From a bacterium (GTDB taxonomy: Bacteria; ARS69), in the NCBI GenBank assembly GCA_025774805.1, contig JALGZR010000054.1, positions 1 through 29,425 on the forward strand: a DNA stretch of 29,425 bases, written 5' to 3'. Under the pieces are notes generated by a model. The model did not search any database. It worked only from the letters and a program-made list of their open reading frames with translations, and was not told where the DNA came from. The translations under genes and the position numbers were made by a program. Of the stretch, positions 2,298 to 27,411 are shown in pieces. Each line of letters opens with the position of its first letter. The first letter of the stretch is position 1.

Positions 2298-3510
2298 GGC
2301 CCTCCGGATCATCCGCGACCACGCCATCGTGGGCTCGGAGACCGTCTCGACGGAGGTGCGCCGGGCGGCAGGTCTGGTGCTCGCCGAGGACGTCGCCTCC
2401 GACATGGACATGCCGGCGTTCGACCGGGCGATGATGGACGGGTTCGCTTACCGCCATCGGGACGTCGCCACGCACGAGACGATGCACATCGTCGCCACCG
2501 TCGCCGCCGGGGAGGAGTTCACCGGAGACCTGGCTCCGGGAGAGTGCGTGCGGATCATGACCGGCGCCCCCGTGCCCTCCGACGCGGACACCGTGATTCC
2601 GGTGGAGGAGACCCGGGAGGAGGGAGATCGGGTTCGATTCGAGGCTCCGCCGCCCGAGGGTCATCACATCTCCCCCCGCGGCGAGGATCTCGTCACCGGA
2701 GCGGTGGTCCTGCGGGAGGGCCAGCTCCTCGGGAGCGCCGAGGTCGGCGTTCTCGCGGCGGTGGGGCGCCGGTCGGTCCGGGTGTACGGGCCGCCTCGCG
2801 TGGCCTACCTGTCCACGGGGGACGAGCTCCTCGAGCCGGGAGAGCCCCTCCGCCCTGGCATGATCCGAAGCTCCAACTCCTCCGCCGTCCACGCGCAGAT
2901 CCTCGCTCTCCGGGCTCTGCCACACGATCTCGGGATCGCACGGGACGTCGAGGACGATCTGAGGGAGAAGATCGGCCGGGGTCTCGAACACGATATGCTC
3001 CTCCTCTCCGGCGGTGTCTCGAGGGGACGCTACGATCTCGTTCCCGATGTGCTCGAGAAGCTGGGCGTGCAGCTTCTCTTCCACCGGCTCCTGGTGAAGC
3101 CCGGACATCCGACGCTGTTCGGCGTCCGGGACCGCGCCCTGGTCTATGGCCTTCCCGGAAACCCGATCGCGGCGCTCTTCGCCTTCGAGCTCTATGCCGC
3201 CCCCGCGATCCGGGCGTTCATGCGTCATCCTCGTCCTTCGACCACGCGCTATCTCGGCGAGCTGACGGAGTCCATCACGAAACGTCCCGGAAAGGAGACC
3301 CTCGTTCCGTGTTTCACCGAGTGGAGGGACGCCGGCTTTCTCGTCCGTCCGATTCGCACCCACGGTTCCGCGGACATCTTCGGCATGACCGGGGCGAACG
3401 CGATCGCGATCCTGCCCGCCGACGTCGGGCACTTCGAGGCGGGACGCCCCGTTCCGTTTTGTCGGTTGGGGGAATCCGAAGGAGGGTTCTCGCGAAAGGA
3501 GACTCGATGA
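2281..3510 (+). CDS. moeA: Molybdopterin molybdenumtransferase MoeA
   Basis: A 409-residue cytosolic enzyme that inserts molybdate (or tungstate) into adenylylated molybdopterin. Diagnostic segments are MDMPAFDRAMMDGFA (about 41-55), RIMTGAPVPSDADTVIPVE (about 92-110), STGDELLEPGE (about 178-188), LSGGVSRGRYDLVPDVL (about 242-258) and YGLPGNPIAALFAFELY (about 290-306), covering the linker, MoCF and C-terminal domains. The length is normal for single-domain MoeA without a MogA fusion. The start lies inside the end of tupC and the stop overlaps the next start (ATGA). Placement directly behind the Tup transporter links uptake to cofactor insertion; paired with Tup genes it may prefer tungsten, but that is inference. 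Confidence 0.95.
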   Translation: MTTLDEALRIIRDHAIVGSETVSTEVRRAAGLVLAEDVASDMDMPAFDRAMMDGFAYRHRDVATHETMHIVATVAAGEEFTGDLAPGECVRIMTGAPVPSDADTVIPVEETREEGDRVRFEAPPPEGHHISPRGEDLVTGAVVLREGQLLGSAEVGVLAAVGRRSVRVYGPPRVAYLSTGDELLEPGEPLRPGMIRSSNSSAVHAQILALRALPHDLGIARDVEDDLREKIGRGLEHDMLLLSGGVSRGRYDLVPDVLEKLGVQLLFHRLLVKPGHPTLFGVRDRALVYGLPGNPIAALFAFELYAAPAIRAFMRHPRPSTTRYLGELTESITKRPGKETLVPCFTEWRDAGFLVRPIRTHGSADIFGMTGANAIAILPADVGHFEAGRPVPFCRLGESEGGFSRKETR

Positions 3511-7109: not shown

Positions 7110-9341
7110 CTACCTCAGGCGGACGGACTTCCTCACGAAGGAGAGATCCCCGTCCGCGCGGAGGAAGTAGATGCCCGCGGGCACCCGGCGCCCGCTCCCG
7201 TCCCGCCCGTCCCAGAGGATGCGGATCTCGCTCCCGGTTCCGTGGAGCTCCGGAAGCGTCCGGACGTGCCGTCCGGCCACGTCGAACACCCGGACGCCGA
7301 TCCGGCTGCCGGCGGGAAGGACGAGACGGAGCTCCTGAAGGCCCCGCGCCGGCTGGGGCGTCACCGTTCCCACGAGAGAACCCTCGGGCCGGGTGGGAGT
7401 CGGAGCGTCGGTGGCATTGGACTCGAGGACGACCGACGTGTCGGCGGGAAAGGGCCCGAAAACCTCCATGGATCCACCCGGCCAGGTGACGACCACGCTG
7501 TCCACGGCGGTCCGATCGCCCAGCCCGAAGTGGAGCGCGAGGGGGCCCTGGAACCCGCGCCAGGGACTCGCCTCGGCGCGGCGGTGGACGACCGTCGATC
7601 CGGCGTGGCACGCGACCCGGGACCCGACGTACGTTCCGCCGTGGACAGTCTCGCCGAGGCGCACCGAGAGCCAGTGCCCGGCCGGGCCGTCGTTCCGGTA
7701 GACCGTGGAAGGGGCCTGGATGCTGTAGAAGTTCGGTCCCGCCCCGTCCTGGAGGAAGAGATCGAGGTCCCCGTCCTCGTCGAGATCGGCCCACACGCCC
7801 CCGTCGCCGAGGTGGTCCGTGTCGCCGGGGATCCATCCCGCCCCCTCCAGCGGCACGAAGGCGGCGCCGTCGTTCCGCCAGAGGATGTCGGGCTCGTTGA
7901 ACGTCTCCGACGTTCCCTTGTTGACGAGATGGAGATCGAGGTCCCCGTCGTTGTCGAAGTCGACCCAGTTCACGTGCCTCGGGTTCGTGGAGGTCGTCAG
8001 GCCGAGGGAGTCCGTGATCTCGCTGAACACGCCACCGTCGTTTCGATAGACGCGGAGCGCTCCGGGAGGATACGCGGGCTGCTCGAGATTCGAGTCCCCG
8101 GCGTACGGGATCCCCGAACCGTAGATCCGTCCGGAGTAATTACCGGCGGTCCCGGGCGGTGCGGAGACCCGGATCTGCCAGCGCCCACCGGCCGACTCCC
8201 GCCAGAGGTAGAGCCCCTCGTCCTCGCCGGGGGTGAAGGGGGGGGCGCCCACGTACTCGTCCGTGAGCACGGTCACCGGGTTGTTGGGGTGCACTCCGTC
8301 CGGGCCGAGGAAGAAGCGGTCGGGGATGAACGAGCCGCGCCACTGGAGGAGCGCGAGGGGAGATGCCGCCGCCGTGTCGAGCTCGAACGCGTCGACGCCG
8401 TCGTCGTTCAGACGGTGGTGCGCGAAGAACCAGAAGTCGTTTCCCTCGACTCCCCTCGCGTCCCAGATTCCCTCGTGTCCCTCGCACACCGCGAGATCCA
8501 TGTCTCCGTCGCTGTCGAAGTCGTCCCAGTCGGCGCCCGCGACAATCGGCAGCGAGTCGAACGCCGCCGCCGTGACGTCCGTGAATCCGGATCCGTCGTT
8601 TCTCCAGAGGATCGTCGGGCGGGAGAACTCCTCTCCGCCCACGAGAAGATCCGGATCGCCGTCGTCGTCGTAATCGGCGAAGAGACCCCCGACGGTGCCG
8701 TACCCCTCATCCACGCCCCAGTCGTTGGCGACGTCCGTGAAGCTCATCGATCCGTCGTTGCGGTAGAGGGAGTTCGGGCTCATCCCCAGAGGGGCTTTGG
8801 CGTGGTAGAGGTCGAGGTCGCCGTCTCCGTCGACGTCGGCGGCCGAGAAGCACCTCCCGCGACCCACGGTGTCGGCCATGCCTCCCGCGCCCGGGATCGA
8901 ATCGAGGAGCCCGCCCCCGAGCGACCGCCAGAGCTCGTTCCCGTCGTCCGAGCACGCGCAGCCCCCGTCGCCCCCGTGGGAGCACACGGCGTCGAGATAC
9001 TCGTCGCCGTCGAGATCCGCCCACAGGAACCCGTGACGGTCCTCGACGTCCGAGACGATCTGGGGGATTCCCGTGTGGGTGAAGGACCCGGTGCCATCGT
9101 TCGTGAAGATCCAGACGCTCAGGTAGTGGTGCGCGTTCACCACGTCGACGTCACCGTCCCGGTCGATGTCGATCGCCTGCGCGCCCCACGTCGGTTCGTC
9201 GCCGAAGATCCCCGACGACCCGGTCACGTCGGTGAAGCCCGCCACCGCATCCCGACCGGACACCGCCAGGGCCACAGCGACGATGAGTCCGGTGGAGACG
9301 AGGCGCCGCAGCGCCGGGAGGAGCGAGATCTTCCCGAAGAT
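7110..9341 (-). CDS. Secreted FG-GAP/VCBS repeat protein with ASPIC/UnbV and FlgD-like Ig domains
   Basis: About 743 residues. A signal peptide (residues 1-35: FGKISLLPALRR, hydrophobic LIVAVALAV, cleavage near DAVAG) precedes seven calcium-binding-type motifs of the DxDxDGDxD kind at about 58, 109, 169, 223, 274, 461 and 519, as in beta-propeller FG-GAP/VCBS proteins. An ASPIC/UnbV domain follows at about 557-640 (GSRVACHAGS ... GFQGPLALHFGLG ... VVVTWPGG). A FlgD-type Ig domain closes the protein at about 660-743 (VFDVAGRHVRTL ... WDGRDGSGRRVPAGIYFLRA). Residues about 320-430 are an insertion between propeller blades that I do not recognise. No ATG, GTG or TTG exists between the stop of the upstream gene and the hydrophobic core; the frame has ATC six nt behind a clean AGGAGA, so ATC is annotated as start. 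CTG at 9312-9310 and an ATG at 9446 inside the upstream gene are alternatives. Confidence 0.85.
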   Translation of the reverse strand: MFGKISLLPALRRLVSTGLIVAVALAVSGRDAVAGFTDVTGSSGIFGDEPTWGAQAIDIDRDGDVDVVNAHHYLSVWIFTNDGTGSFTHTGIPQIVSDVEDRHGFLWADLDGDEYLDAVCSHGGDGGCACSDDGNELWRSLGGGLLDSIPGAGGMADTVGRGRCFSAADVDGDGDLDLYHAKAPLGMSPNSLYRNDGSMSFTDVANDWGVDEGYGTVGGLFADYDDDGDPDLLVGGEEFSRPTILWRNDGSGFTDVTAAAFDSLPIVAGADWDDFDSDGDMDLAVCEGHEGIWDARGVEGNDFWFFAHHRLNDDGVDAFELDTAAASPLALLQWRGSFIPDRFFLGPDGVHPNNPVTVLTDEYVGAPPFTPGEDEGLYLWRESAGGRWQIRVSAPPGTAGNYSGRIYGSGIPYAGDSNLEQPAYPPGALRVYRNDGGVFSEITDSLGLTTSTNPRHVNWVDFDNDGDLDLHLVNKGTSETFNEPDILWRNDGAAFVPLEGAGWIPGDTDHLGDGGVWADLDEDGDLDLFLQDGAGPNFYSIQAPSTVYRNDGPAGHWLSVRLGETVHGGTYVGSRVACHAGSTVVHRRAEASPWRGFQGPLALHFGLGDRTAVDSVVVTWPGGSMEVFGPFPADTSVVLESNATDAPTPTRPEGSLVGTVTPQPARGLQELRLVLPAGSRIGVRVFDVAGRHVRTLPELHGTGSEIRILWDGRDGSGRRVPAGIYFLRADGDLSFVRKSVRLR

Positions 9342-9347
9342 GGCCGC

Positions 9348-9353
9348 TCTCCT
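9348..9353 (-). promoter_or_regulatory. Shine-Dalgarno sequence pointing to an ATC start
   Basis: On the minus strand AGGAGA overlaps the TAG stop of the upstream 701-aa gene and stands 6 nt before ATC (9341-9339). This is the site that decides the start of the FG-GAP gene; no conventional start codon lies at usable distance. Confidence 0.5.
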
Positions 9354-11457
9354 AACGAAGAAGCGTTCCCTTGACCGTGCGAACGGCCCCCTCCGCCTCG
9401 AGGCGGAAGAAGTAGACACCGCTTGCGACCCGGGACCCGGTGGCATCGCGTCCGTCCCAGGGTAGGGAGGTGACGCCGGCCGGGGCCGGTCCGTCCAGAA
9501 GCACCTGAATCGTTCGTCCGTTCACGTCCAGGATCGACAGCCGGGCCGCTCCCGCGCGCTCCTGCGAGAACGTGAGGCGGGTCGACGTCGCGAACGGGTT
9601 CGGCTCGCTCGGGTAGAGCCGGAGCCCCTCGACCCGCTCCCCCTCCGCGATCGCCGTCGGTCCGCCGCCGTACGGAGCCAGCGAGTTCAGGAAGAAGGTC
9701 GTGCCGACGCCGGGTCGGAACAGGCCGCCCTTCACCTTGGAGACGACGGGCGGGCGATCCGCGTCGAACCGGAAGTTGAACTGGGTCTGGTAGAAGAGCG
9801 CCGGCGCGTCGGGAACCGTGGCGTAGTCGTCCGTCCACCAGGAGATGCGATCGCTCGTGAAGGAGGACGACCAGTCCGTCTCCGGTTTGTGATCGATGTC
9901 GTGAAAACCGATGTTCGACACGACGGCCCCGGTGATCGGCACCTCGAAGAGGCGCATTCCGCGGCCGCAAGTGCGGTTGTACACGGCGTACTCGTAGTGC
10001 CAGCTCCCCCCGCCGAGGTCCGTCACCTTCACCGAGTGGAACATCCAGCCGTCATCGGGCGAGACGAGGGTGGAGTCGTGCGCATCTCCCCAGGTGAAGA
10101 TCGGGGCGCCCAGGATCACGTCGAGTCCGCCGCCGACGTCGGTGAAGTCCCAGTCGGTCCCGGACCAGGTCATCGTGCACTCGCGCCACCCGATGTTGTT
10201 GTAGAGGCTGTCGTCGTCGGCCACGAAGTAGACGCCCTCGTAGAGATAGGTCGCGGTGGTGTCCCCGAGATCCACATCGTCGACCTCGAGCCGGTGCGCC
10301 ACTTCGTCCGGCTCGATTCCCAGGTAGTCCCGCTCGCAATCGACCGGAGTCGCGTCGAAGAACGAACCGCAGGCCTCCCAGGACGCGATGTGCGGGTCGA
10401 CCTCCTCGCGTGGCCCGAGATAGTAGCGGGACGCGTTGTTGGCGGCCGAGTAGGTGTCCGAGCAGCCGATCTCCATGTAGGTGCCCCCGCCGCCGTCGCA
10501 ACCGAGGTCGCAATCGTCGTTGGCCAACGCGTACCAGGCGTGCTTGACCCAGTTCTGGCCGATCATCTCGAGGGCGCCGTCCTTCTCGCGATAGAGCGCC
10601 AGCCCGATGAACGGGTGGGTCTCCTCCATCGGCGCGTTCCAGGGCACGATCACTTCCCCGTTGTTGCACGCGGTCGTCGCGGCGGTGAGCCCGGCCGTCC
10701 CGTTCGGATAGATTCCGATCCGACCCGCGCTGTCGATGCCGTAGAGCTCGCGAAGGAGGATGTCGAGGACGAGTTCCTGCTGATCGGAGGCCCGGGAAGG
10801 GGGCTCGGGCGCTCTCACGCGGGGGCGCGCGGGAGTCGCCGCGAGACGCAGATCGAACGCACCCACGAGCTTCCCCTCGAGCGACGGCTGGCCGAGACGC
10901 TCGGCCCACTCTTCGGAGATCACGAGATCACCCATTCTCAGGGAGAGCTCCCCCCGCTCGGCTTCCAGGGTCCACCAGGCGTTGCGGACCTCGAGAGGGA
11001 CGGGAAGATCGCGGTCCCCCGTACGAATCCGGATCGGGACCCGGCCGGTTCCCGGCACCACCTCGAGAGCGAAGTCGAACAGGAACAGCGGATCGAGGAG
11101 AGCCTGGGTGCTCCGGTGACGGGCGCGAAACGCGAGCCCTCCCTGCACGGGGAGAATCGGGGCCATGCCGACGAACCCCTCGAACCTCTCCCCGGACGTT
11201 CGAAATCTCACCTCGGGAAGCTCGTCGACCACGAACGAGTAGACCGGTGGCTCCATTCCCAGCTTGATCGGAGCCGGTCCGGGGCGGGTCTCCCGAGTCG
11301 ACACGATCTCGAGACCCAGATCTCTCAGACGACCGTCACTCAGCGAGAACGAGGCCCGGGCCCCTGTGACCGTCCAGACGTTCTCGGCGGCGGAGGGTGA
11401 GGACAACGCGACCGTCAGAGCGGCCCCGAGCAGAAGAACCGTGCGTGGCGCCGACAT
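9352..11457 (-). CDS. Secreted hypothetical protein with C-terminal FlgD-like Ig domain
   Basis: A 701-residue exported protein. Residues 1-24 form a signal peptide (hydrophobic VLLLGAALTVAL, cleavage near PSAA). Residues about 25-230 are a beta-rich region I do not recognise. A large middle region (about 240-590) is rich in Trp, Tyr, Asp and Cys, with CDLGCDGGGGTYMEIGC, ACGSFFDATPVDC and TWGDAHDS. The end (about 615-701) is a FlgD-type Ig domain (YPSEPNPFATSTRLTFS ... SILDVNGRTI ... WDGRDATGSRVASGVYFFRL), often the anchoring or sorting part of surface proteins in related phyla. GGAGAGAG lies just before the ATG. It is followed immediately by the FG-GAP gene, so the two probably form a transcription unit. 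The function of the N-terminal and middle regions is unknown. Confidence 0.85.
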   Translation of the reverse strand: MSAPRTVLLLGAALTVALSSPSAAENVWTVTGARASFSLSDGRLRDLGLEIVSTRETRPGPAPIKLGMEPPVYSFVVDELPEVRFRTSGERFEGFVGMAPILPVQGGLAFRARHRSTQALLDPLFLFDFALEVVPGTGRVPIRIRTGDRDLPVPLEVRNAWWTLEAERGELSLRMGDLVISEEWAERLGQPSLEGKLVGAFDLRLAATPARPRVRAPEPPSRASDQQELVLDILLRELYGIDSAGRIGIYPNGTAGLTAATTACNNGEVIVPWNAPMEETHPFIGLALYREKDGALEMIGQNWVKHAWYALANDDCDLGCDGGGGTYMEIGCSDTYSAANNASRYYLGPREEVDPHIASWEACGSFFDATPVDCERDYLGIEPDEVAHRLEVDDVDLGDTTATYLYEGVYFVADDDSLYNNIGWRECTMTWSGTDWDFTDVGGGLDVILGAPIFTWGDAHDSTLVSPDDGWMFHSVKVTDLGGGSWHYEYAVYNRTCGRGMRLFEVPITGAVVSNIGFHDIDHKPETDWSSSFTSDRISWWTDDYATVPDAPALFYQTQFNFRFDADRPPVVSKVKGGLFRPGVGTTFFLNSLAPYGGGPTAIAEGERVEGLRLYPSEPNPFATSTRLTFSQERAGAARLSILDVNGRTIQVLLDGPAPAGVTSLPWDGRDATGSRVASGVYFFRLEAEGAVRTVKGTLLR

Positions 11458-12915: not shown

Positions 12916-13893
12916 CTACGACGTCACCTTCAACGCTTCCGGTAACGGCAGAGGCGACTCGCCCTGGCGGGCGATCTCGCGGCGGAGCGCGATGAGGTTG
13001 CGGGCCATCGCGGATACGAAGTCCCGCGCCATGTCGAAGTGGTCCTCCAAAATGTCGAGAAAGTCCTCGGTGTCGCCCCGCAGTGCGACGACGGGCGTCT
13101 CGCACACGGCGGTGAACCAGCGCGGCTGGCCGCAGAGCCGCTCGAGATTGCCGAGGGGATAACCGGGTCCGGCGCGGAAGAGAACCGCCCCGTCCGCACC
13201 GGTGCAGACGATTCGTCCCGAAACGATGACGTACATGAGCGGAGAGGGTTCGCCGATCCGCCAGACGGTCTGGCCCTCCCGGAAACGGACCTCGGGGGTC
13301 GATCGCGCGAGCTGGGCGAGAGCCTCCAGGCTCGAATTGGCGAACGGTGAGCCGGGACGGCGGATCAGGACGATCCGCTCCACGAGATCGATCCGCTCGG
13401 GCGTCTTCTGAAACAGTCCCTCCGCGGGCGCGAGATAGGTGGAAGGGGGAATCCGACGGCGCTCGACCAGCATGATCCGAGCGAGGTTGCGGACGAGGTT
13501 GAGCAGGACTGAAAAGTGGTCCTCGAGGATGTCGTGGATCACATCATCTTCGAACATCAGGGTGAGGGTGGCCTCTTCCGCCGTCGCCTGGAGCCCCTCG
13601 GGGAGACCGGCGAGCATGGGAAGGAACCCGAACCCGTCGCGCGGCCCGAGCACCGCCGGTTCCGGGTACTCGCCTCCCTCCGCCCGAACGCGGCCCTCGG
13701 TGATGACGTGGTAGGAGCACGCGCGCTCTCCGGCTCGCAGGATCGTCTCTCCCGGGGCGAACTGACCCTCTTGGGCGTTCTCCGCGAAGACCGCGATGTC
13801 GGCGAGGTCCAGGGCCTCCAGGGGTCCCAGGGTCTTGAGGAACAGGACCCGCTCGAGCGGCCCCACTCTGCGGGCGCTATCGAATCGGGACAA
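12916..13893 (-). CDS. Protein with two cyclic-nucleotide-binding-like domains
   Basis: A 325-residue cytosolic protein. Two Crp-type cNMP-binding folds are visible, about residues 18-145 (FAPGETILRAGERACSYHVITEGRV) and 178-300 (FREGQTVWRIGEPSPLMYVIVSGRI). The phosphate-binding cassettes are degenerate: the usual FGE-x-AL/Arg signature is replaced by DGFGFLPMLAG and GYPLGNLERLCG, so binding of cAMP/cGMP is doubtful. No helix-turn-helix follows, so it is not a typical CRP regulator. The start is TTG at 13893, supported by AGGAG about 10 nt upstream; GTG at 13866 is an alternative without a ribosome site. It overlaps the end of the transporter-HEAT gene by 17 nt and is therefore coupled to it. 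Confidence 0.85.
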   Translation of the reverse strand: MSRFDSARRVGPLERVLFLKTLGPLEALDLADIAVFAENAQEGQFAPGETILRAGERACSYHVITEGRVRAEGGEYPEPAVLGPRDGFGFLPMLAGLPEGLQATAEEATLTLMFEDDVIHDILEDHFSVLLNLVRNLARIMLVERRRIPPSTYLAPAEGLFQKTPERIDLVERIVLIRRPGSPFANSSLEALAQLARSTPEVRFREGQTVWRIGEPSPLMYVIVSGRIVCTGADGAVLFRAGPGYPLGNLERLCGQPRWFTAVCETPVVALRGDTEDFLDILEDHFDMARDFVSAMARNLIALRREIARQGESPLPLPEALKVTS

Positions 13894-16765
13894 CGAACGC
13901 CTTCTCCTTCCCCGGATCGTCGAGCATGTCGAGCGCGACGCCGAACGTGTCCCGCATCGCCTCCATCGCGCTGTCCCGGAGGCGCGCGAGATCCTCTCGC
14001 AGATCCCGCAGCCCGAGCTCGCCCACGTGGTAGGCCACCAGGCAGCGCAGGTGGAGGCTGTTCTGCTCGAGGAGAACCTTGAGCAGGTCGTCGTGCGTCC
14101 GCGCCGGAGGACGGTAGAGCCGCGCCCCTGCCGCCAGACGCCGGTCGTCGGGAACGTCGTCGAGAATCCCCAGGACGACCTCCTTGATCGGCGAGGGAAG
14201 GGCGTTCTCCAGGAGCTCCCGGCTGCTCGCCCGCGAGTTTCGGTCGCCCTGCAGTCCGCGGTGGATGCGGCGGAAATCCTCGCGCGGATACCTCAGTCCG
14301 AACAGGCGGAACAGACGCTCGATGCCGTGCTCCTCCTTGTGCTCGAGAAGCTCGACGACCAGCCGTCGCACGGGCGTGTTCCACTCCGGGCGCGGTATCG
14401 ATTCCCGTGCGAGCTGATGCCCCCAGTCGATCGTCCGGAGGATCTTGCGCAACGTGTCCTCGATCACGCGGTCGAGCACGTCGAGATCCAACAAGACATC
14501 GGGGTGATGACTTCGGATGTGCCCGAGGGCCCGCAGGATCTTGTAGCGAACCGTGCCGTCGGGATCGACGGGGAGCCGGTCGAGGAGGAAGCGCGCCGCC
14601 CGGACCGGATCGAAGCAGCAGATCGTGCGGGGAAGGTGCCGACGGATCGGCCGGGGCAGCGACTCGTCCGCCAGGGCCTCGGCGAGACGATCCAGCGCGG
14701 GATTGCCGATGGCGACCAACGTCCGGCGCGCCTCTTCCCGGCATCCGCGCTGGGAGAGCATGGTGAGCAGGCTGTCGAAGTACTCGATCTTCGGCGTCTC
14801 GCGCATGGCGACGGCGACCTCGGACCGGAGCGCGGGGACGGGGTGGGTGGCCAGCGAGCGGAGCACCCCGTCGAACCGCGGGCCGGCACGGCGGCGGATC
14901 GCGCGGACCAGGGCCCTCTTCGCCTCGATCGAGCCGGCGTGGATGATCGTATCGAGGATCGACTGGACCCTCGGGTGAAGATCATCGGGCCGCCTGGCGG
15001 AGGCGAGCAGGAGCACGAGCGCCGTGGCCCGCACGTCGGGGGACTCGTCGGCGAGCGCACTCTCGAGCAGGTCGCAATCCGGCTCCACGGCCGGCATGGC
15101 CGTCAGCGCGGCGACTCGCACCTCTTCGTCGGGGTTCTTGTGCAGTCGCTCGAGCAGAGGGAGGTGGTCGGTGCGCCCCGCCTGCTGAAAGAGCTCGAGG
15201 GCCCGCACGACGACCTTCGGTGAAGGGTGATAGAGAATCAACGCGGGGGCGAGGTGGATGCGGTCCTTCTCCGCGAGGAGGTCGAGCGCGGCGCGGACCT
15301 CGGCGTCGTTCGGGCTCGAGAGGGCGGCCATGAGAGTCTCGAGCGAGGCGAGATCCATCTCGGGAAACTCCGCGCGCGTCTGGATCGTCCCCTCGTCGAG
15401 CGCGCTCCGGAAGAGGTCGAAGTAGTGCCGCTTCAGGCCGACCGCGATCACGAGCCATCCTGCACACAGGAGAAACAGCGCAACGCCGATTGTGGCATCC
15501 CCGGCTCCGAGCCCGATCGCCGCGAGAAAGGCGAGAGACGCGATCGCCTGGCCCCCGCGCTGGCCGAGCACGTCGACGAGACCCCGCGCGCGGGCCCGCC
15601 ACTCGCCGGCGAGCGGCACGTAGAGCACCTCCGTCGAGGTCCGGTGGAGCGAGTGGCGGAAGATGCCGTCGGAGCCCTTGATGGCGAACGCGGCCCAGAA
15701 AGTGCCGGCGCCGGAGGCCGCGGCGGTCATGCCGATTCCGAACGCGGCCCAGACGAAACCACCCGACACCACGAGGAGCAAGAGGGGCATGAAGGCCAGC
15801 ACGCGATCGATGGCGAGGTTGCGCGTCATCCATCCGACGAGGGAGATCTGCACGAGGAGAGCGGCGATGTTGAGAAGGAGGTAGGTCGTGGCGAAGACGT
15901 AACCCAGGTTCTCCGGCCTCACCTCCCGGGCGACGGCGGTCTTGAACACGAGATCCGCGACCGTGAGCGTGATCGTCGAAACGACGACAAGCGCGGCGAC
16001 CCGGCGGACATAGGGGTGGCGGGCGATCGCACGCAGGGTCGAGATCGTCGGGGCGGCGGCCCGAGCCGCGACTCGCGGGATCTCGACCGGAGGGGACTCG
16101 CCGTCGACCGGAGGCGGAGCGGCGTCGGGCGAAGGGGCCGGTGCCGGGAAAGCGCGCTCCTCCCGGCCTCTCTCCTGGGAGGCCGGACGCAGAAGGAATG
16201 GGGGGATGCCGGCGAGAAGGAACGAGATCGTCGCGGCGAGAACGAGCTCGGTCGCCTCGGCGGACGTGACGATCCGCTGCGCGAGAAACGACCCGGTGAT
16301 CGCGCCGAGAATGCTGCCCGCGCCGATCGTCGCGAAGAGACGCCGTGCCTGGGTGACGGTGAAGATCTCCCCGAGGAGGACCCAGAAGCGCACGACCAGG
16401 AGGGTGGCGAGCAGTCCCGACCAGATATAGAGAACGTACAGGATCCACTCCCCCGTACGCCCGATCAGGATCCAGAGGGAGAACGTGACCACACCGGCGC
16501 CCATCAGCAGAGACGCGAGCTGGGCTCGTGAAGGTCGGACGGGAGATCCCCGGCGGCGCTGCCTTCCCTCGAAGATCACGAGCGCCAGCACGGCGATTCC
16601 GAGATAGACGAAGGGGAGCCGTGCCGCCTCGAGCTTCGCGAGAAAGAGGGAGTCGCGCGCGGTCTCCAGAATGGAGTGCCCCACCATGATCCCGAAGAGG
16701 GTCAGGAACGCTCCGAGAGCGTTGCGTCTCTCCCCGGAACGGATGTCGGCGAGGCGGATTCTCAT
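13877..16765 (-). CDS. NTT-like (ADP/ATP translocase-type) membrane domain fused to HEAT repeats
   Basis: A 962-residue protein. Residues 1-460 carry about ten to twelve hydrophobic segments interrupted by a Pro/Ala/Glu-rich cytosolic linker (about 195-240). The stretch GSDGIFRHSLHRTSTEVLYVPL followed by ARGLVDVLGQRGGQA (about 364-406) resembles the hallmark region of the Npt1/Npt2 nucleotide-translocator family (Tlc, MFS-like). Residues about 470-950 are alpha-helical HEAT repeats (NDAEVRAALDLLAE, PDEEVRVAALTAM, ESPDVRATALVLLL, PVPALRSEVAVAMRE). The ATG overlaps the stop of the M24 peptidase gene (ATGA), and the next gene supplies cNMP-like domains. Transport of nucleotides is a family-based guess; the large HEAT module suggests a sensor or scaffold role at the inner membrane. 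Confidence 0.83.
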   Translation of the reverse strand: MRIRLADIRSGERRNALGAFLTLFGIMVGHSILETARDSLFLAKLEAARLPFVYLGIAVLALVIFEGRQRRRGSPVRPSRAQLASLLMGAGVVTFSLWILIGRTGEWILYVLYIWSGLLATLLVVRFWVLLGEIFTVTQARRLFATIGAGSILGAITGSFLAQRIVTSAEATELVLAATISFLLAGIPPFLLRPASQERGREERAFPAPAPSPDAAPPPVDGESPPVEIPRVAARAAAPTISTLRAIARHPYVRRVAALVVVSTITLTVADLVFKTAVAREVRPENLGYVFATTYLLLNIAALLVQISLVGWMTRNLAIDRVLAFMPLLLLVVSGGFVWAAFGIGMTAAASGAGTFWAAFAIKGSDGIFRHSLHRTSTEVLYVPLAGEWRARARGLVDVLGQRGGQAIASLAFLAAIGLGAGDATIGVALFLLCAGWLVIAVGLKRHYFDLFRSALDEGTIQTRAEFPEMDLASLETLMAALSSPNDAEVRAALDLLAEKDRIHLAPALILYHPSPKVVVRALELFQQAGRTDHLPLLERLHKNPDEEVRVAALTAMPAVEPDCDLLESALADESPDVRATALVLLLASARRPDDLHPRVQSILDTIIHAGSIEAKRALVRAIRRRAGPRFDGVLRSLATHPVPALRSEVAVAMRETPKIEYFDSLLTMLSQRGCREEARRTLVAIGNPALDRLAEALADESLPRPIRRHLPRTICCFDPVRAARFLLDRLPVDPDGTVRYKILRALGHIRSHHPDVLLDLDVLDRVIEDTLRKILRTIDWGHQLARESIPRPEWNTPVRRLVVELLEHKEEHGIERLFRLFGLRYPREDFRRIHRGLQGDRNSRASSRELLENALPSPIKEVVLGILDDVPDDRRLAAGARLYRPPARTHDDLLKVLLEQNSLHLRCLVAYHVGELGLRDLREDLARLRDSAMEAMRDTFGVALDMLDDPGKEKAFVVPIR

Positions 16766-18198
16766 GACCGCTCGGGGGCGGCGGAGCCGGCGGGTCCGCC
16801 GCCCACCAACGCCTCCACGTTCTCCACGCCCTTCGGGATCGCCGCGGTGAGCACCTCGGGGCCGTCGGAAGTGATCCGCACGTCGTCCTCGATCCGGATG
16901 CCCCCGAAGCCGCGCCCCTCGTTTCGGGACAGGAGCTCCTCCGCCCGATCGAAGTCGACGCAGTCGGCGAACCGCGCGGACAGCTCGGGATGGCGGAGAA
17001 TCGCGGGCACGAAGTAGATCCCGGGCTCGATCGTCACCACCATGCCCGGCTCGAGATCGCGATCGATGCGCAGGAAGGCGGTGCCGAACTGCTCGCTGCG
17101 GGCGCGACCTTCACCGTAGAGAACACGATCGCCGAACGACTCGAGATCGTGGGCATCGAGGCCGAGGAAATGCCCGAGTCCGTGCGGGAAGAAGAGCGCG
17201 TGGGCTCCGCGCTCGACGAGATCCTCCGGCGATCCGCGCAGGATGCCGAGGTCGACCAGCCCCTCCGCGATCACCCGCGCCGCGGCCAGATGGAGGTATC
17301 GGAAGCGGGTGCCGACAGTCGCTCCCGCGACGCCGGTCTCGTTCGCGCGGAGGACGATCTCGTAGACGGCGCGCTGCTCCGGACCGAATCGCCCCGTCGC
17401 CGGCCACGTGCGGGTCACGTCACACGCATAGCCCGACTCGATCTCCGCCCCCGTATCGAGAAGGAGAAGGTCCCCCTCGGCGAGCGTCCCCTCGTGGTGG
17501 TGGTTGTGGAGGATCTCCCCGCGCACCGAGAGGATCGTCTCGAACGCAGGGCAGCCCCCGTGCCGAGCGAAGCCCTCTTCGAGCGTGGCCACGAGGTGGT
17601 GCTCCCGGACGCCGGGACGGCTGCCGGCCATGACCGCGGCCACCGCGTCATGTGTCACCGCGACGGCGCGACGGATCTCCTCGACCTCGGGCTCGAGCTT
17701 GTGGAGACGGAGGTCGGCGAGAATGTCCTGCAATTCGATCGGCGCGATCCGATCGGGATCGCGAAACTCGAGCGGTATCCCGGTGATCCGCCGCGCCCGA
17801 TCCGTGACCTGGGGGTCGGCGACGGCCACGGAGTGGATCGGTCGGCCCCCGGCGATCTCTTCCACGCGCTCTTCCAGCCGCTCGACCGCCTCCACTCGAT
17901 CCACTCCGGTTCGGTCCCGCATCTCCCCGAATCCCGGCACGGGTCCCATCCAGAGGGCGTTCTCCACCGTGCGCTCGGACAGGAAGAGCGTGACGGTTCC
18001 GTCTGCCGGGTCGAAAAGACCCGCCGCGTCCCTTTCGGCCGCGCCGAAGAAGAAGAGGAAATGGCTGTCCGCGCGATCGGGATACGGGTTGTCGGGGTAG
18101 TTCCGCGGACGCGCGCCGCCGGCAAAGAGGAGAACGGGAGCGGGAATGCGATCGAGGAATTGACGGCGGCGGACGAGAAGGTGATCGAGCGGGATCAT
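16762..18198 (-). CDS. M24 family Xaa-Pro peptidase (PepP/prolidase-like)
   Basis: A 478-residue metalloenzyme that removes an N-terminal residue preceding proline or splits Xaa-Pro dipeptides. The N-terminal aminopeptidase-P-type domain is residues about 1-160 and includes NPYPDRADSHFLFFFG. The C-terminal pita-bread domain has the five dinuclear-metal ligands: D248 and D260 (DTGAEIESGYACDVTRTWP), H343 (HGLGHFLGLDAHD), E391 (IEPGIYF) and E437 (GIRIEDD); H232 or a neighbour in HNHHH fits the substrate-binding histidine. Length matches PepP/PEPD proteins. The start at 18198 is chosen because it begins the family's N-terminal domain, although its ribosome site is weak; a longer frame reaching 18825 runs through a promoter-type region. 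First gene of a three-gene overlapping operon. Confidence 0.92.
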   Translation of the reverse strand: MIPLDHLLVRRRQFLDRIPAPVLLFAGGARPRNYPDNPYPDRADSHFLFFFGAAERDAAGLFDPADGTVTLFLSERTVENALWMGPVPGFGEMRDRTGVDRVEAVERLEERVEEIAGGRPIHSVAVADPQVTDRARRITGIPLEFRDPDRIAPIELQDILADLRLHKLEPEVEEIRRAVAVTHDAVAAVMAGSRPGVREHHLVATLEEGFARHGGCPAFETILSVRGEILHNHHHEGTLAEGDLLLLDTGAEIESGYACDVTRTWPATGRFGPEQRAVYEIVLRANETGVAGATVGTRFRYLHLAAARVIAEGLVDLGILRGSPEDLVERGAHALFFPHGLGHFLGLDAHDLESFGDRVLYGEGRARSEQFGTAFLRIDRDLEPGMVVTIEPGIYFVPAILRHPELSARFADCVDFDRAEELLSRNEGRGFGGIRIEDDVRITSDGPEVLTAAIPKGVENVEALVGGGPAGSAAPERS

Positions 18199-18499
18199 GG
18201 CGGTTCCCGGGAGGCGGTGAGGTGGTGCCGACGGATTCGGACCCAGCCGGGACCGGGGAGACGTCACCGACGCCGAGCGGGGAAGAAAACGGTCGGCCCG
18301 CTCGCACCGTCCGGTCGAAGCAGGGTGGGTCTCAGAAGAGTGTAAGACCGGAACGGGGATCCCGGTAGGGGGTTGTGGGCGCCCGGCGGAAGACACCCCC
18401 TTGCCGTCGCCGCCCCCGCGGTCGTGCGGTCTCGCCGCCTTGCCCCGAGATCCCTTCCCCCGCATACTCTCGCGATCCGTGCTCCGGAGGAGGCGCGAC
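18199..18499. other. Divergent promoter region
   Basis: About 300 nt between the M24 peptidase operon (-) and the acetyltransferase gene (+). It contains the likely forward promoter at 18440-18468. On the minus strand TACACT near 18342-18337 could serve as a -10 box for the peptidase operon, but I see no good -35 partner. No gene is evident. Confidence 0.4.
18440..18468 (+). promoter_or_regulatory. Putative promoter of the YhbS-like acetyltransferase gene
   Basis: TTGCCC (18440-18445), a 17-nt spacer and CATACT (18463-18468) resemble sigma-70 boxes and sit about 30 nt before the ATG, leaving a short leader containing the ribosome site GGAGGAGG. Confidence 0.45.
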
Positions 18500-22622: not shown

Positions 22623-23927
22623 TCACGATTCGCTGAGCTCGGATCCGGAGTAGCGGCTCAGGACCCGACAGAAGGCCGTCCAGGCGATCACGGTGACCAC
22701 CAGATTGCCGGCCAGAAGCCCGAACGACACGCCGAGCAGTCCGCCCTGGTAAACCACGGCGGTCGCCACTCCCAGCATCACGACGACGCCGACCAGCGAG
22801 ATCCCGAACGACAGGTCCGGTCGCTCCAGAACCCGCAGCCCGACGATGGGCGCGAGATCGAGCGAGGCCACCCACGTCGCGAGCGCGATCACGGCCACGA
22901 CGTCGCCGTTCCCCGCGAAGGCTTCCCCGTAGATGCCCCCCACCAACCGCCCGCCCCAGATTACCAGGACCAGGCAGAACACCGACATCGCGAGCGCGAC
23001 CAGGAGCGCGATCTTTCGGCTGACTCGCCACAACTCGTCCCGGCCGCCGTCCGCGACCGCCCGGGCCATCCGGGGGGTGAGGATGTTGAGTATTCCGAGG
23101 ATGAACGGATTGGAAATCGCGACAACGGTCAAGCAGGCCGAGTAGATGCCGGTCGCGGCGGTGCCCAGGGTGAGAGCCAGAAACCAGTGGATCGAGTAGC
23201 CCCGCATCACCGACACCATCTGGCCGGCGAAGATCCATCGACTGAAGATCCAATTCTTGCGCCAGTCGCGGACCAGCCGCTCCCTTCGCACCTCGATTTC
23301 CCGGCGAACGTGGCCGAACCAGATCCCGGCGGTCAGCAGACAGGCGATACCGAGAGCGACGTAGGCCGCACGCGCCGACAGACGGCCGGTTGCAACCAGC
23401 CCTCCCATCCCCAGGACGAACAGTCCGGAGACGACGGCGTCGACGGCCAGCGCCGTTCGCATCCGGAGGTGCGCGAAGGAGAAGCGGCGCGCGAACTCCC
23501 GAGCGAGCAGCATCGGAGCGACCAGGGCCAAGACCAGCATCAGCGACGGACTGCCCGGGGGGCCGCCCGCGGCGGCCAGCAACCCGGCCAGTGTCAGGGT
23601 GGCGAGGGAGGCGATCAGAGCCAGCGAACCGGCGTGGGCCAGCGCGCTCCCGGCGAACGTCCGTCGCTCGGACGGGTCCATCCGGTTCCCGAAGATGGTG
23701 TAGGGCGTCGTGACCAGGGAGTCATGGGAGTTGGCCACGAACAGCATCACCGTGAAGGCGAGGGAGTAGAGGCCGAGCTCGCTCTCCGAGGCGACACGAC
23801 CTATCAGGATGGTCGTGAGAAAGCTGATGCCGCTGACGATCCCCTGATCGATCTGCGCCCAGTAGCTCGCGCGCGCGCTCTGCCCCCTGACCAGATCGCG
23901 CAACCGCCTCGTTCCCCGGTCCATCAT
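22623..23927 (-). CDS. Polysaccharide flippase-like membrane protein (Wzx/MOP superfamily)
   Basis: A 434-residue integral membrane protein with about twelve hydrophobic helices (for example LALIASLATLTLAGLLAAAG, VVVMLGVATAVVYQGG, LLAGNLVVTVIAWTAF). The N-terminus YWAQIDQGIVSGISFLTTILIGRVAS is characteristic of O-antigen/teichoic-acid flippases that move lipid-linked sugars across the inner membrane. The ATG at 23927 is annotated; a TTG at 23933 is closer to the only purine-rich site (GAGGGCGG) and is equally possible. It lies 55 nt behind the CapK-like gene on the same strand, so the two are probably cotranscribed. No polymerase or glycosyltransferase is present nearby. Confidence 0.82.
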   Translation of the reverse strand: MMDRGTRRLRDLVRGQSARASYWAQIDQGIVSGISFLTTILIGRVASESELGLYSLAFTVMLFVANSHDSLVTTPYTIFGNRMDPSERRTFAGSALAHAGSLALIASLATLTLAGLLAAAGGPPGSPSLMLVLALVAPMLLAREFARRFSFAHLRMRTALAVDAVVSGLFVLGMGGLVATGRLSARAAYVALGIACLLTAGIWFGHVRREIEVRRERLVRDWRKNWIFSRWIFAGQMVSVMRGYSIHWFLALTLGTAATGIYSACLTVVAISNPFILGILNILTPRMARAVADGGRDELWRVSRKIALLVALAMSVFCLVLVIWGGRLVGGIYGEAFAGNGDVVAVIALATWVASLDLAPIVGLRVLERPDLSFGISLVGVVVMLGVATAVVYQGGLLGVSFGLLAGNLVVTVIAWTAFCRVLSRYSGSELSES

Positions 23928-23982
23928 GGACAACCGTGTACCGCCCTCTGTCTCGAGAGTCCGGTCCCGATCCGTCTCACGG

Positions 23983-25341
23983 TCAGCGTCGATGACCGGT
24001 GTGATCGGGTGAGGCCGTGAGCGACCCCGTCTCCAAATCGTGAATTCGCTGATGTCCGAGATCGGACGTGACGAACCGAAGCTTGTCTCCCGAACCGGCG
24101 AGAGAGTCCACGACGTCCAGGGTCACCGGATAGCCCTCGATCAGCTCTTCCAGCTTCTGCCGGATCACCGCCAGATCGGGTGGAGAGGATGAGCCGTCCG
24201 GCTCCACTCGAACCGTCACCGCGCCGTCGGTCTCCTGATGCACGCGGTAGTGAGCGATGCCCACGCACCCCGGATCCTCGAACAGAGTCTCGATGCGGGC
24301 AGGATGCACGGGGATCCCGAGTCGAGTGAAGATCAGATCGTTCTCTCGCCCGGAGATGTCCCCCAAGATCGCGAAGCCTCGTTCGGGGAATGTTAGCGGT
24401 TCGTCGGTCAGGTCTCCGATCGCGTATCGGATCAGAGGAAACGACGGATTGTTCAGTCTCGTCACCACGATGTCGAGGTGGCCGTGCCCGCCGGCAATCG
24501 CCTCCATCAAGACCACGTCCTCGCGAACCCTCATCGTGCCGTCGGGAAACTCCCCGGCCAGAAACCCGCACTCCACCGATCCGTACTCACCGACCACCGG
24601 GACCTGAAACGCGTCATGAATGGCTTGCCGCACTCGGAACGTGACCCGTTCGGAGGTGACGATGATGCAACGAAGCGAGCTGCAGTGGAACCCCGCCGCC
24701 AACGCTTCCTGCGCCAGCAGGTGAATCGCGTTGGTGTACCCGTAGATCGATGCCGGTCGGAACTTCTCGATCTCGGCCAGATACCGCCGGAGATCCTCGG
24801 GCGCCAGCTTCTGAACCGTGTATCGGCGCCGACCGCGTAGCCGATCGAGGATCGCGAGCTGAAGTCGTCGAACCCGGCGCGTGTCGTATCCCCATACGAA
24901 CACCTTGCGATCCAGCATGTCCAGGCCCCACGCGGCCTCGAAGCGGTACTTGCTCCGCAACATCTCCCGGTGGGCACTCCGGCTCCAAAAGACGTTCAGC
25001 GGCGCGCCGGTGGAGCCCGACGTGCGGTGCCAGAACCCCGGCCCCGCCCGTTCCGACAGAAGGGCCCGGGTATCGGATCCGATGGACGCGCGCCGGAGGA
25101 TCGGCACCCGGTTCCGAAACTCATCCAGAGACTCGAATCGGTCGGGCAGATCCAACGATCGTGACAGACGACGGTAATGGGGTACGAACCGCACCGCGTG
25201 AGACCAGAGAGCGTTGAGCCGGCGGCACTGGAAGGTCTCGATCTCCGGACGCGACCACCGCTCGCGATCGGCCAGCCGGGATAGCTCGCGCCGGGCTCTT
25301 CGGAAACGGGGGGAAATCAGCAGCAGATGCTGGACGTTCAC
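23983..25341 (-). CDS. CapK/phenylacetate-CoA ligase-like adenylate-forming enzyme
   Basis: A 452-residue member of the ANL adenylating superfamily. The P-loop-like motif is RTSGSTGAP (106-114), followed by family landmarks EYGSVECGFLAGEF (about 282-295), RYAIGDL and GRENDLI, with the C-terminal lid domain at about 370-440. CapK-type relatives are found in capsule and exopolysaccharide clusters, where they are thought to activate small acids for attachment to polysaccharide. The start is GTG at 25341; the longer in-frame ORF reading to 25620 crosses a palindromic element and has no domain content. Together with the flippase it suggests synthesis and export of a decorated glycan. Confidence 0.88.
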   Translation of the reverse strand: MNVQHLLLISPRFRRARRELSRLADRERWSRPEIETFQCRRLNALWSHAVRFVPHYRRLSRSLDLPDRFESLDEFRNRVPILRRASIGSDTRALLSERAGPGFWHRTSGSTGAPLNVFWSRSAHREMLRSKYRFEAAWGLDMLDRKVFVWGYDTRRVRRLQLAILDRLRGRRRYTVQKLAPEDLRRYLAEIEKFRPASIYGYTNAIHLLAQEALAAGFHCSSLRCIIVTSERVTFRVRQAIHDAFQVPVVGEYGSVECGFLAGEFPDGTMRVREDVVLMEAIAGGHGHLDIVVTRLNNPSFPLIRYAIGDLTDEPLTFPERGFAILGDISGRENDLIFTRLGIPVHPARIETLFEDPGCVGIAHYRVHQETDGAVTVRVEPDGSSSPPDLAVIRQKLEELIEGYPVTLDVVDSLAGSGDKLRFVTSDLGHQRIHDLETGSLTASPDHTGHRR

Positions 25342-25874
25342 GGATCGCTCTCTTCTGGACAGTTCGGTCCATTGTATCGGATTTGGCCCGGACCATTCAT
25401 GAAGGATCTGCTGCGATCGCGGAACCACGCCACCGGACGGGCGTCCTCGGGGTCCGTACCCTGCGACGTATCGTCGAGATACGCCTCGGGTCCAAACCCC
25501 TGCGGGTGCCCGTCCGGTGGGCGTCTCCGCAATCTCGCGACGATCTTCATGAATGGTCCGGGCCAGGGGCGGAAGCCACGGTCGATCTCGATCCCGGAGC
25601 CGTCCGACGGGCGCCGGCACGCAGTTCGGCCGGTGAGCGGCGGGAAGTCGAAGCGGTTGATTTGGCCCCGCTTGTGCGAGCGAGGGAGGGGCCTTCTACG
25701 TCTTCCCCGAGTCGGACTGGAGGGGTGACGAATGTACGGGCCTCCGGTAGTCTCTCGGACGGACGGCCGGAGGGCCTTCGGTCACCGGAGACGCACGGCC
25801 GGGCTCATGGATCGAGCGCGGGTCCGTCCGACCGACTGCTTTCCGGAACCAGCAACGTCGAATGGGGGTGGGGG
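25342..25874. other. Intergenic region dominated by a fold-back element
   Basis: About 530 nt between divergent genes. It carries the 180-bp palindrome at 25385-25564. The remaining 310 nt to the 119-aa gene are GC-rich with no credible open frame. No clear promoter boxes were identified for either neighbour. Confidence 0.5.
25385..25564. repeat. 180-bp nested palindromic (fold-back) element
   Basis: The outer 20 bp, GGCCCGGACCATTCATGAAG, recur as an exact inverted copy at 25545-25564. Similarity continues inward to about 60 nt per arm, including a shared CACCGGACGGGC block. The exact centre carries GTATC-GTCGA-GATAC (25468-25482), so the whole element can fold into one long cruciform. No transposase and no obvious target-site duplication are seen. 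Confidence 0.85.
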
Positions 25875-26234
25875 ATGAACATCCGGACTCTGAGCGCCGG
25901 GATGTCCTTTCAGGGAAAGGTGTCCGGACGGAAGCAGACCTACTACGTGTTCGAGGGGCGGAACGCCTACTTCGTCTTCTCGTTCTCTCGTGCCAAGCCG
26001 AAGGCGGGTTACTTCAACATGGTCTCCGCCGAGGCCCTGAAGTACGCTCGTCGGCTCACGAAGGGGCAGCAGGGCGTGACCGCTCAGTCCGTCTTCAAGC
26101 GGTCGCGAACGCCCAGGTACATCGGATCGGCCCTGGAAGCGCTGAACATACTCTACGTCCTCGTCGCGCTGGGCGAGGCGAAGATCGACGGCCGTCACAA
26201 GACCAAGCAGCTCTTCTTCAACATGACCGCCTGA
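25875..26234 (+). CDS. Hypothetical protein, 119 aa
   Basis: A small basic protein (many Lys/Arg) beginning MNIRTLSAGMSFQGKVSGRK and ending HKTKQLFFNMTA. The central part VSAEALKYARRLTKGQQGV and the C-terminal SALEALNILYVLVALGEAKI look helical, and the last part could be a winged-helix-like unit; this is a visual impression only. No signal peptide. Composition and third-position GC fit a real gene, and the ATG follows a G-rich stretch (GGGGGTGGGG). I do not recognise a family. It lies between a palindromic element and a convergent type VI secretion gene pair. In-frame coding-like sequence continues beyond its TGA. Confidence 0.6.
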   Translation: MNIRTLSAGMSFQGKVSGRKQTYYVFEGRNAYFVFSFSRAKPKAGYFNMVSAEALKYARRLTKGQQGVTAQSVFKRSRTPRYIGSALEALNILYVLVALGEAKIDGRHKTKQLFFNMTA

Positions 26235-26387
26235 TTGACGAGGTCGTTCGGGCGCAGGCTATCGATTGCAGGCTGGACGCAGGGCTTCCGGGAAGTTCCC
26301 CCGAGGTTCTTCGGTCTTCAGCGCTGCTCGATCCACAACGGCGTGTACTTCCACGGCATCAAGACGAAGGAGCGTTCTCACACGTGA
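26235..26387 (+). pseudogene. Possible in-frame coding remnant behind the 119-aa gene
   Basis: The frame of the 119-aa gene stays open for 50 further codons past its TGA and reads a plausible protein end (RFFGLQRCSIHNGVYFHGIK ... SHT). It could be a C-terminal extension cut off by a nonsense mutation or a remnant of another gene. It overlaps the end of the opposite-strand DUF2169 gene by 29 nt. Chance openness over 50 codons in GC-rich DNA is quite possible. Confidence 0.25.
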
Positions 26388-27393
26388 TCCGGTAGTCCGT
26401 CACGTCGTGGGGGCCGTCCGGAATCGGGCAGAAGCTCCTCCAGAGCAGGATCAGCTTCATCTCGTCGGTGTCGACGATCACCGTGTCGAGGTTCGTCTCG
26501 AGGAGCACTTCGTCGCCCGATCTGCGCGCGACGAGGCACTCGGGGGGCTTGGTCCCCGGGAGGCGGAACTCCAGCCTCCCCGCCGGAACCGCGTTCCGCA
26601 CCAGGATGGATTCGTTTCCCCGCAGATAGCGGGGCATGACGAGGCCGGGAGAGGCCGCATTGAAGAAATCGCGCCGGAAGTCCTCCGGGAGAAGAGGCGA
26701 TCGCGTCTTCTCCCACTTCTCGCCGTACGTGCCGGCGAGCTCGCTGCGGGGCCTCCAGTCGGGAGAAACGAATCCGAATCCGGCGGGACGGCTCTTCCCC
26801 CCGTACTTCGCCACCGGCTTCTCCGGATCCTCGAGATTGGGTAGGGGCGCGCCCTCCTCGAACTTCGAGCCCTTGGCGTGGAACCCGACTCCGACCGGAT
26901 TCCGGGGCTCGCAATCGTGCTTCTTCGGGTCCGGATGGCTCCGGTCCCACCCCCCGAACGCCCGCTCGTAGACGAGCGGAATCTTCTCGAACGGCGCGGG
27001 CGGAGTGACCTTCGGCTTCAATAGCGTCTTCTCCCAATGACGGTCCCCGACGACGTGAATCGTCTTCCTGAGGTTCGAGACCCCGAACTGTACCCCGATC
27101 TTCGCGGTCCCCGGACGGGGGGCGTAGGCGTGGCCGACGAGAACGACGTCCGTCTTCGGCTTGATAAACGCGGTCTCCGGCTCGTACCGGAGGCTGCTCT
27201 CGCCGGGCGCGCCGTGGTACTCCCCCGCGAAGTTGACGGGGAGCTGGTCTTCGGCGAGCGTAACTCCTCCGTTCGAATCGAGATCGAACGTCGCCTTGAC
27301 GAGCGGCGCGACGATCGGCCGACCGTCCTCGTCGGCGAGGAGGAGCGGCTCGAACGCGAAGGGCGTTCGATTGTCGATGGAAGGATGTCCCAT
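26359..27393 (-). CDS. DUF2169 family type VI secretion-associated protein
   Basis: A 344-residue soluble protein with the DUF2169 layout: an N-terminal NRTPFAFEPLLLADEDG, then VVKATFDL-like strand (PLVKATFDLD), KPKTDVVLVGHAYAP, YERAFGGWDRSHPDP and EPRNPVGVGF, and near the end WRSFCPIP. DUF2169 genes are regularly found next to vgrG and are thought to help load effectors on the spike. The start at 27393 is 18 nt behind the vgrG stop, so they are cotranscribed. The cargo effector expected in such loci would normally lie further downstream, yet here the gene is followed by a convergent unknown gene. Confidence 0.88.
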   Translation of the reverse strand: MGHPSIDNRTPFAFEPLLLADEDGRPIVAPLVKATFDLDSNGGVTLAEDQLPVNFAGEYHGAPGESSLRYEPETAFIKPKTDVVLVGHAYAPRPGTAKIGVQFGVSNLRKTIHVVGDRHWEKTLLKPKVTPPAPFEKIPLVYERAFGGWDRSHPDPKKHDCEPRNPVGVGFHAKGSKFEEGAPLPNLEDPEKPVAKYGGKSRPAGFGFVSPDWRPRSELAGTYGEKWEKTRSPLLPEDFRRDFFNAASPGLVMPRYLRGNESILVRNAVPAGRLEFRLPGTKPPECLVARRSGDEVLLETNLDTVIVDTDEMKLILLWRSFCPIPDGPHDVTDYRITCENAPSS

Positions 27394-27411
27394 GACGCCC
27401 GCTAGCCCGGG

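Follow-up and report, generated by a model that had tools for sequence, protein, structure and literature searches.

A separate tandem-CNB gene strictly coupled to NTT-HEAT membrane proteins in one bacterial clade

On the minus strand of the 29,425-nucleotide stretch of DNA analysed here (hereafter the window; contig JALGZR010000054.1), three genes overlap head to tail, exactly as an earlier note on this sequence had described. They encode an aminopeptidase P (PepP), a fusion of an NTT-type membrane domain to HEAT repeats (NTT-HEAT), and a protein with two cNMP_binding-type (CNB) folds (Table 1). PepP overlaps NTT-HEAT by 4 bp, and NTT-HEAT overlaps the double-CNB gene by 17 bp; an AAGGAG lies 10 nt ahead of the TTG start of the latter. 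If translation instead began at the next in-frame start, a GTG at 13866, the second overlap would become a gap of 10 bp. No promoter or terminator beyond chance was detected at the locus, nor was any Rfam RNA or tRNA found. Spurious gene calls were ruled out by domains, homologues and structural models, and the long plus-strand ORFs opposite these genes (13796-15223 and 16990-18345) were taken as antisense artefacts in a genome of 67% GC.

Table 1. Positions of the genes, domains and signals of the NTT-HEAT/double-CNB locus within the window
Feature	Position	Strand	Description
Aminopeptidase P (PepP, M24B)	16762-18198	minus	478 aa; AMP_N + Peptidase_M24; upstream neighbour
ATGA overlap, PepP stop / NTT-HEAT start	16762-16765	minus	sequence
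NTT-HEAT fusion gene	13877-16765	minus	962 aa; Pfam TLC and HEAT_2 above cut-offs; 12 TM helices and solenoid
NTT (MFS-type) membrane domain	15395-16765	minus	residues 1-457 of NTT-HEAT; AtNTT1 fold match
HEAT-repeat solenoid	13895-15352	minus	residues 472-957 of NTT-HEAT; Pfam and model
AAGGAG, likely RBS of double-CNB gene	13904-13909	minus	sequence; within the coding end of NTT-HEAT
Double-CNB gene	12916-13893	minus	325 aa, TTG start; PF00027 twice; model pLDDT 89.9, pTM 0.85
CNB-A	13438-13869	minus	residues 9-152; phosphate cassette lost: F90 for Glu, E99 for Arg
CNB-B	12970-13401	minus	residues 165-308; remodelled cassette: N249 for Glu, E251, R258 kept

Elsewhere in the window, genes for a substrate-binding protein, an ABC ATPase with a TOBE domain and MoeA stand in a row on the plus strand (12-3510), probably a molybdate/tungstate uptake and cofactor operon. 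Two overlapping large proteins on the minus strand (7110-11457), one with FG-GAP and ASPIC/UnbV domains and both with FlgD-like Ig C-termini, are of the secreted-protein type. The minus-strand genes at 22623-29301 resemble a type VI secretion island that may carry cargo: a VgrG-like gene (27412-29301) is followed by DUF2169 (26359-27393), a protein weakly similar to AMP-binding ones (23983-25620) and a membrane protein with weak similarity to polysaccharide-synthesis proteins (22623-23933). The genome as a whole (5.1 Mb in 284 contigs, 96% complete) has no fewer than two other genes of the NTT family. One encodes a single-domain NTT (G000:C86; L035:8112-9479); the other (G000:C241; L034:4347-6737) encodes an NTT whose HEAT tail is shorter and which lacks a CNB, a type that recurs in other genomes and forms its own clade in the NTT tree.

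The membrane domain of the fusion groups with NTTs and not, as it might have done, with ordinary MFS transporters. Pfam TLC (PF03219) matches the protein at 40.2 bits (cut-off 21), whereas MFS_1 reaches only 24.1 bits, under its cut-off of 33.4. The structural model (mean pLDDT 84.4) places 12 membrane helices within residues 13-457, and the best fold matches to this part are AtNTT1 structures (Z 37.7 and 33.4, the best being 9j3m), with LacY after them (30.9); 412 residues align with AtNTT1 at 15% identity. On the combined evidence of TLC, MFS_1 and the ranking of AtNTT1 over LacY, we excluded an ordinary MFS sugar or drug transporter. C-terminal to the membrane domain, the model shows a HEAT solenoid of about 485 aa, and HEAT_2 scores 48.6 bits (cut-off 27.7). 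The earlier note's reading of this gene, an NTT-like membrane domain fused to about 480 residues of HEAT repeats, is thus upheld, with the refinement that in our tree (a quick search with SH-aLRT support and no bootstrap) the domain stands apart from the single-domain NTTs: all 26 of these and the 5 canonical NTTs lie on one side of a branch with SH-aLRT support of 99, and the window protein lies on the other.

In the downstream protein, Pfam cNMP_binding scores 82.6 bits (cut-off 27.5) over two stretches, and the model consists of two CNB folds with no further domain. Its structural matches reach Z of about 15 and include trypanosomatid PKAR structures. The protein shares the CNB fold with CRP/FNR regulators such as GlxR; unlike them it has two CNBs, has lost the cassette Glu and carries no DNA-binding domain. 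A CRP-type regulator was rejected on the same grounds, there being no C-terminal HTH, no Pfam domain other than cNMP_binding above its cut-off, and nothing but two CNBs in the model. Both phosphate cassettes, FGFLPMLAGLPEGLQAT and LGNLERLCGQPRWFTA, are degenerate when set against FGEL..PRTSSA in GlxR: neither retains the Glu and Arg pair, the corresponding residues being F90 and E99 in CNB-A and N249 and R258 in CNB-B. Pfam, model and cassette alignment therefore all bear out the earlier description of two cNMP-like folds with degenerate cassettes and no DNA-binding part. In CNB-B an acidic residue, E251, occupies the position of A202 in PKA, two residues beyond the lost cassette Glu.

Association of NTT-HEAT proteins with CNBs extends well beyond this locus. 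From a search of 386 genomes distributed across the domain we inspected about 75 loci, counting with profiles built from the first of them. Of the 57 proteins in which an NTT domain is extended at its C-terminus, 39 have a CNB either fused (22) or encoded immediately downstream on the same strand (17), 3 have one otherwise adjacent, and 15 have none. A fused or neighbouring CNB is thus found for 42 of 57 NTT-HEAT proteins and for 0 of 24 single-domain NTTs (Fisher p = 1e-10, the rows not being phylogenetically independent); the 24 were originally 25, the lone one with a CNB neighbour (L079) being a frame-split fusion that we left out. At 14 of 61 long NTT-HEAT loci (L037, L057, L059, L061, L062, L066, L160, L166, L168, L169, L172, L173, L174 and L178) the stretch examined, at most 19 kb long, contains a second NTT-family gene, and at 8 of the 14 it lies within 1.5 kb; two NTT-family genes per locus may represent a paired carrier.

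A search of named genome contigs returned no relative of the window NTT-HEAT protein. The closest NTT-HEAT protein in the first sample (L059, genome G377) is also followed by a 325-aa double-CNB gene that overlaps its stop. We therefore searched 187 genomes of the phylum of G377 with an alignment of the window and L059 NTT-HEAT proteins, a query that contains no CNB sequence, and fetched 20 loci. The weakest of them, L179, is cut off by the end of its contig, and the tree places it outside the clade; the remaining 19 all have a double-CNB gene of 298-372 aa on the same strand, abutting or overlapping the NTT-HEAT stop, its first possible start falling within the NTT-HEAT gene 1 to 176 bp before the end, a distance of 8 bp at seven loci. 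Together with those of the window and L059, their NTT domains make up one side of a branch with SH-aLRT support of 98, a single clade of 21. The case that would have spoken against a partnership, NTT-HEAT homologues never adjacent to cNMP genes, did not arise; both the broad co-occurrence and the coupling at 19 of 19 clade loci favour the earlier proposal that the CNB protein is a partner of NTT-HEAT. At five clade loci the module is adjoined by genes for an Omp85-domain protein and a protein of ~540-620 aa with no Pfam match (L164:4502-7877, L172:3924-7888, L174:267-3451, L178:1273-5517 and L059:3414-6624), the Omp85-domain protein of L172 being fused to PAP2.

Nucleotide exchange by NTTs depends on K155, E245, E385 and K527 (AtAATP1 numbering; PMC4256464, PMC10654386). 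We placed these sites in AtNTT1 through the alignment with 9j3j, in which chain numbering is 84 lower and three of the sites are E, E and K as required. All five canonical NTTs, which score 522-814 bits with the NTP/NDP exchange profile TIGR00769, carry KEEK, whereas the window protein carries R37, G117, D271 and Q406 and scores 37.2 bits against a cut-off of 387.2. It therefore shares the membrane fold of canonical ATP/ADP translocases (AtNTT1, Chlamydia Npt1/NTT1; PF03219, TIGR00769) and differs from them in these residues, in profile score and in its additional HEAT and CNB parts. The departure is general among the 57 NTT-HEAT proteins: K155 is found in none, E245 in 14, Asp or Glu at 385 in 48 and K527 in 2. 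Judged by these residues, the window protein is not a canonical ATP/ADP exchanger, and the earlier surmise that the fold serves some other use appears likely. Within the clade, R37 and D271 are invariant (21/21 each), G117 and Q406 are each kept in 17/21, and H30, E34 and T35 are conserved at 90% or more; because these positions are conserved, the pore site is under a constraint of its own rather than decaying. Conservation of a pore that departs from the canonical one points to a functional site for a different substrate, although the residue pattern itself names none.

The phosphate cassettes show a comparable uniformity. The cassette Glu is absent from all 42 CNB domains of the clade (0/21 in each CNB). 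The CNB-A cassette is otherwise unconserved, and CNB-B keeps its Arg in 16/21 and has Asp or Glu at the PKA-A202 position in 18/21, versus 4/46 among other NTT-HEAT-linked CNBs (p = 8e-10). With cassettes altered in this way across the clade, a cNMP should not be taken for granted as the ligand of the double-CNB protein. Of 50 NTT-HEAT-linked CNBs, by comparison, the Glu is present in 35, the Arg in 38 and both residues in 29, and cNMP binding is plausible in much of that family.

NTT-HEAT proteins have been described before. According to Major, Embley and Williams 2017 (PMC5381601), NTT-HEAT fusions are a family of single origin, widespread among bacteria (cyanobacteria, Chlamydia and free-living species among them) and also present in oomycetes. 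The cNBD gene sometimes lies a few nucleotides downstream, probably in one operon, and is sometimes fused; duplicated cNBDs occur in fused oomycete and Bacilli proteins, and the authors proposed that cAMP controls ATP uptake. Pairing of NTT-HEAT with a cNMP gene in free-living bacteria is consequently not new, and the window proteins resemble the published NTT-HEAT and NTT-HEAT-cNBD proteins in having an NTT, C-terminal HEAT repeats and a cNBD downstream or fused. They differ in that their clade has a separate double-CNB gene throughout and has lost the cassette Glu from every CNB, a sub-architecture and cassette state not described in the text of that paper that we read. What is new here is this clade, in which a separate double-CNB gene always follows NTT-HEAT and the cassette Glu is gone throughout; the window pair belongs to a distinct, strictly kept branch of the published pairing. 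Our literature search, mostly of papers outside subscription journals, yielded only Major et al. and one review citing it on NTT-HEAT, and no function or assay of any member.

Taken together, we somewhat favour a reading in which NTT-HEAT and the double-CNB protein are the two subunits of a single module, the CNB protein being the regulatory one, and we have less confidence in any named ligand. The NTT part would carry, or form a gated pore for, an anionic substrate resembling a nucleotide or phosphate, and would not be an ATP/ADP exchanger. The HEAT solenoid would act as a cytosolic arm coupling it to the CNB subunit, which would gate the carrier through HEAT, as may happen in relatives that have all three in one polypeptide. 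In this clade the subunit would respond to something other than cAMP or cGMP, or only to binding itself. Because 15 of the 57 NTT-HEAT proteins have no neighbouring CNB, the subunit is evidently not always needed outside the clade.

The same parts could also make up a transceptor, as the earlier note had suggested, in which the NTT fold senses a ligand at the membrane without moving a substrate and signals via HEAT to the CNB protein. The absence of E245 and K527 from most NTT-HEAT proteins and the regulatory look of the HEAT/CNB tail are consistent with such a role; the invariant R37/D271 pair and the clade-wide polar residues fit a working binding site, which either model could need. However, the module contains no signalling output (kinase, HTH or cyclase), and we consider a transceptor unlikely.

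A further possibility concerns the ligand: CNB-B may sense a nucleoside rather than a cyclic nucleotide, gating the carrier by purine status. In the trypanosomatid PKA regulatory subunit TbPKAR, a Glu at the PKA-A202 position binds ribose and renders the protein responsive to nucleosides (PMC10959531), and like the double-CNB protein this subunit has tandem CNBs without canonical cassettes and an acid at that position (in the window, in CNB-B only); trypanosomatid PKAR structures, as noted, are among the fold matches. The parallel is only partial, because the cassettes of trypanosomatids retain the first Glu and lack the Arg, whereas CNB-B has lost the first Glu and mostly kept the Arg, and no kinase accompanies it. 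E251 and R258 may therefore simply pair and close the pocket. We regard nucleoside sensing as distinctly doubtful.

The general role put forward by Major et al. is that of an ATP/ADP or NTP exchanger of the ordinary kind, under cAMP control by way of the CNB. The NTT fold, the many NTT-HEAT-linked CNBs that retain both cassette residues (29/50) and the one class III cyclase domain in the genome are consistent with it. Against it stand the R/G/D/Q pore residues, a TIGR00769 score far below cut-off and below those of the five canonical NTTs, and the loss of the cassette Glu from the whole clade. The genome also encodes purH, CTP synthase and an F-type ATP synthase, so there is no sign of a need for imported nucleotides, and a need for imported ATP seems unlikely in this host, which is presumably free-living. 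For this clade such an exchanger is decidedly improbable.

It is important to note that PepP does not travel with the pair. The protein itself appears intact, with AMP_N and Peptidase_M24 both above their Pfam cut-offs and the D/D/H/E/E metal-ligand motifs present, and it has orthologues within the window's family in G004 (62%) and G001 (55%). In G004 its end again overlaps the start of an NTT-HEAT relative. In G001 it is followed directly by the gene that in G004 comes after the CNB gene (tblastx 5e-147), and neither NTT-HEAT nor CNB is present there. No PepP was found near the NTT-HEAT loci of other lineages, and no NTT near 25 named PepP relatives. Because of G001 and the other-lineage loci, we infer that NTT-HEAT and CNB are gained and lost together and that PepP, which we rejected as an integral member, is probably a lineage-specific transcriptional neighbour; here the earlier note, which had placed all three genes in one unit, is not supported. 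A single pathway of PepP, NTT-HEAT and CNB, in which, say, a proline-containing or nucleotide-peptide conjugate is taken up and then trimmed by PepP, has in its favour the 4-bp overlap and the recurrence of the junction in G004, and is very improbable given the separate distribution of PepP. On the G004 contig with this junction (C82; L055:3256-3423) the first ~30 codons of NTT-HEAT are joined to the last ~25 codons of the CNB gene, the CNB-gene end being 93% identical to that on C336 (L149) over 89 bp; this join is a strain deletion or an assembly chimera.

Modules of NTT-HEAT and CNB are common in bacteria, including free-living ones, and one is found in Chlamydia. The clade described here offers a practical entry point to them: a separate, soluble subunit with a uniformly altered cassette can be purified and screened for ligands, and loss of its gene can be tested apart from the carrier. 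A ligand, if found, would tell what a large family of NTT relatives responds to. The boldest form of the proposal, which we put forward as a long shot, is that the two genes encode a ligand-gated NTT-superfamily carrier and that its tandem-CNB subunit, through a two-residue shift of the cassette acid, has exchanged cyclic nucleotides for another ligand, either a nucleoside or a nucleotide that is not cyclic. If true, bacteria would have a counterpart of the nucleoside-responsive trypanosomatid PKA, here joined to a membrane carrier of a nucleotide family.
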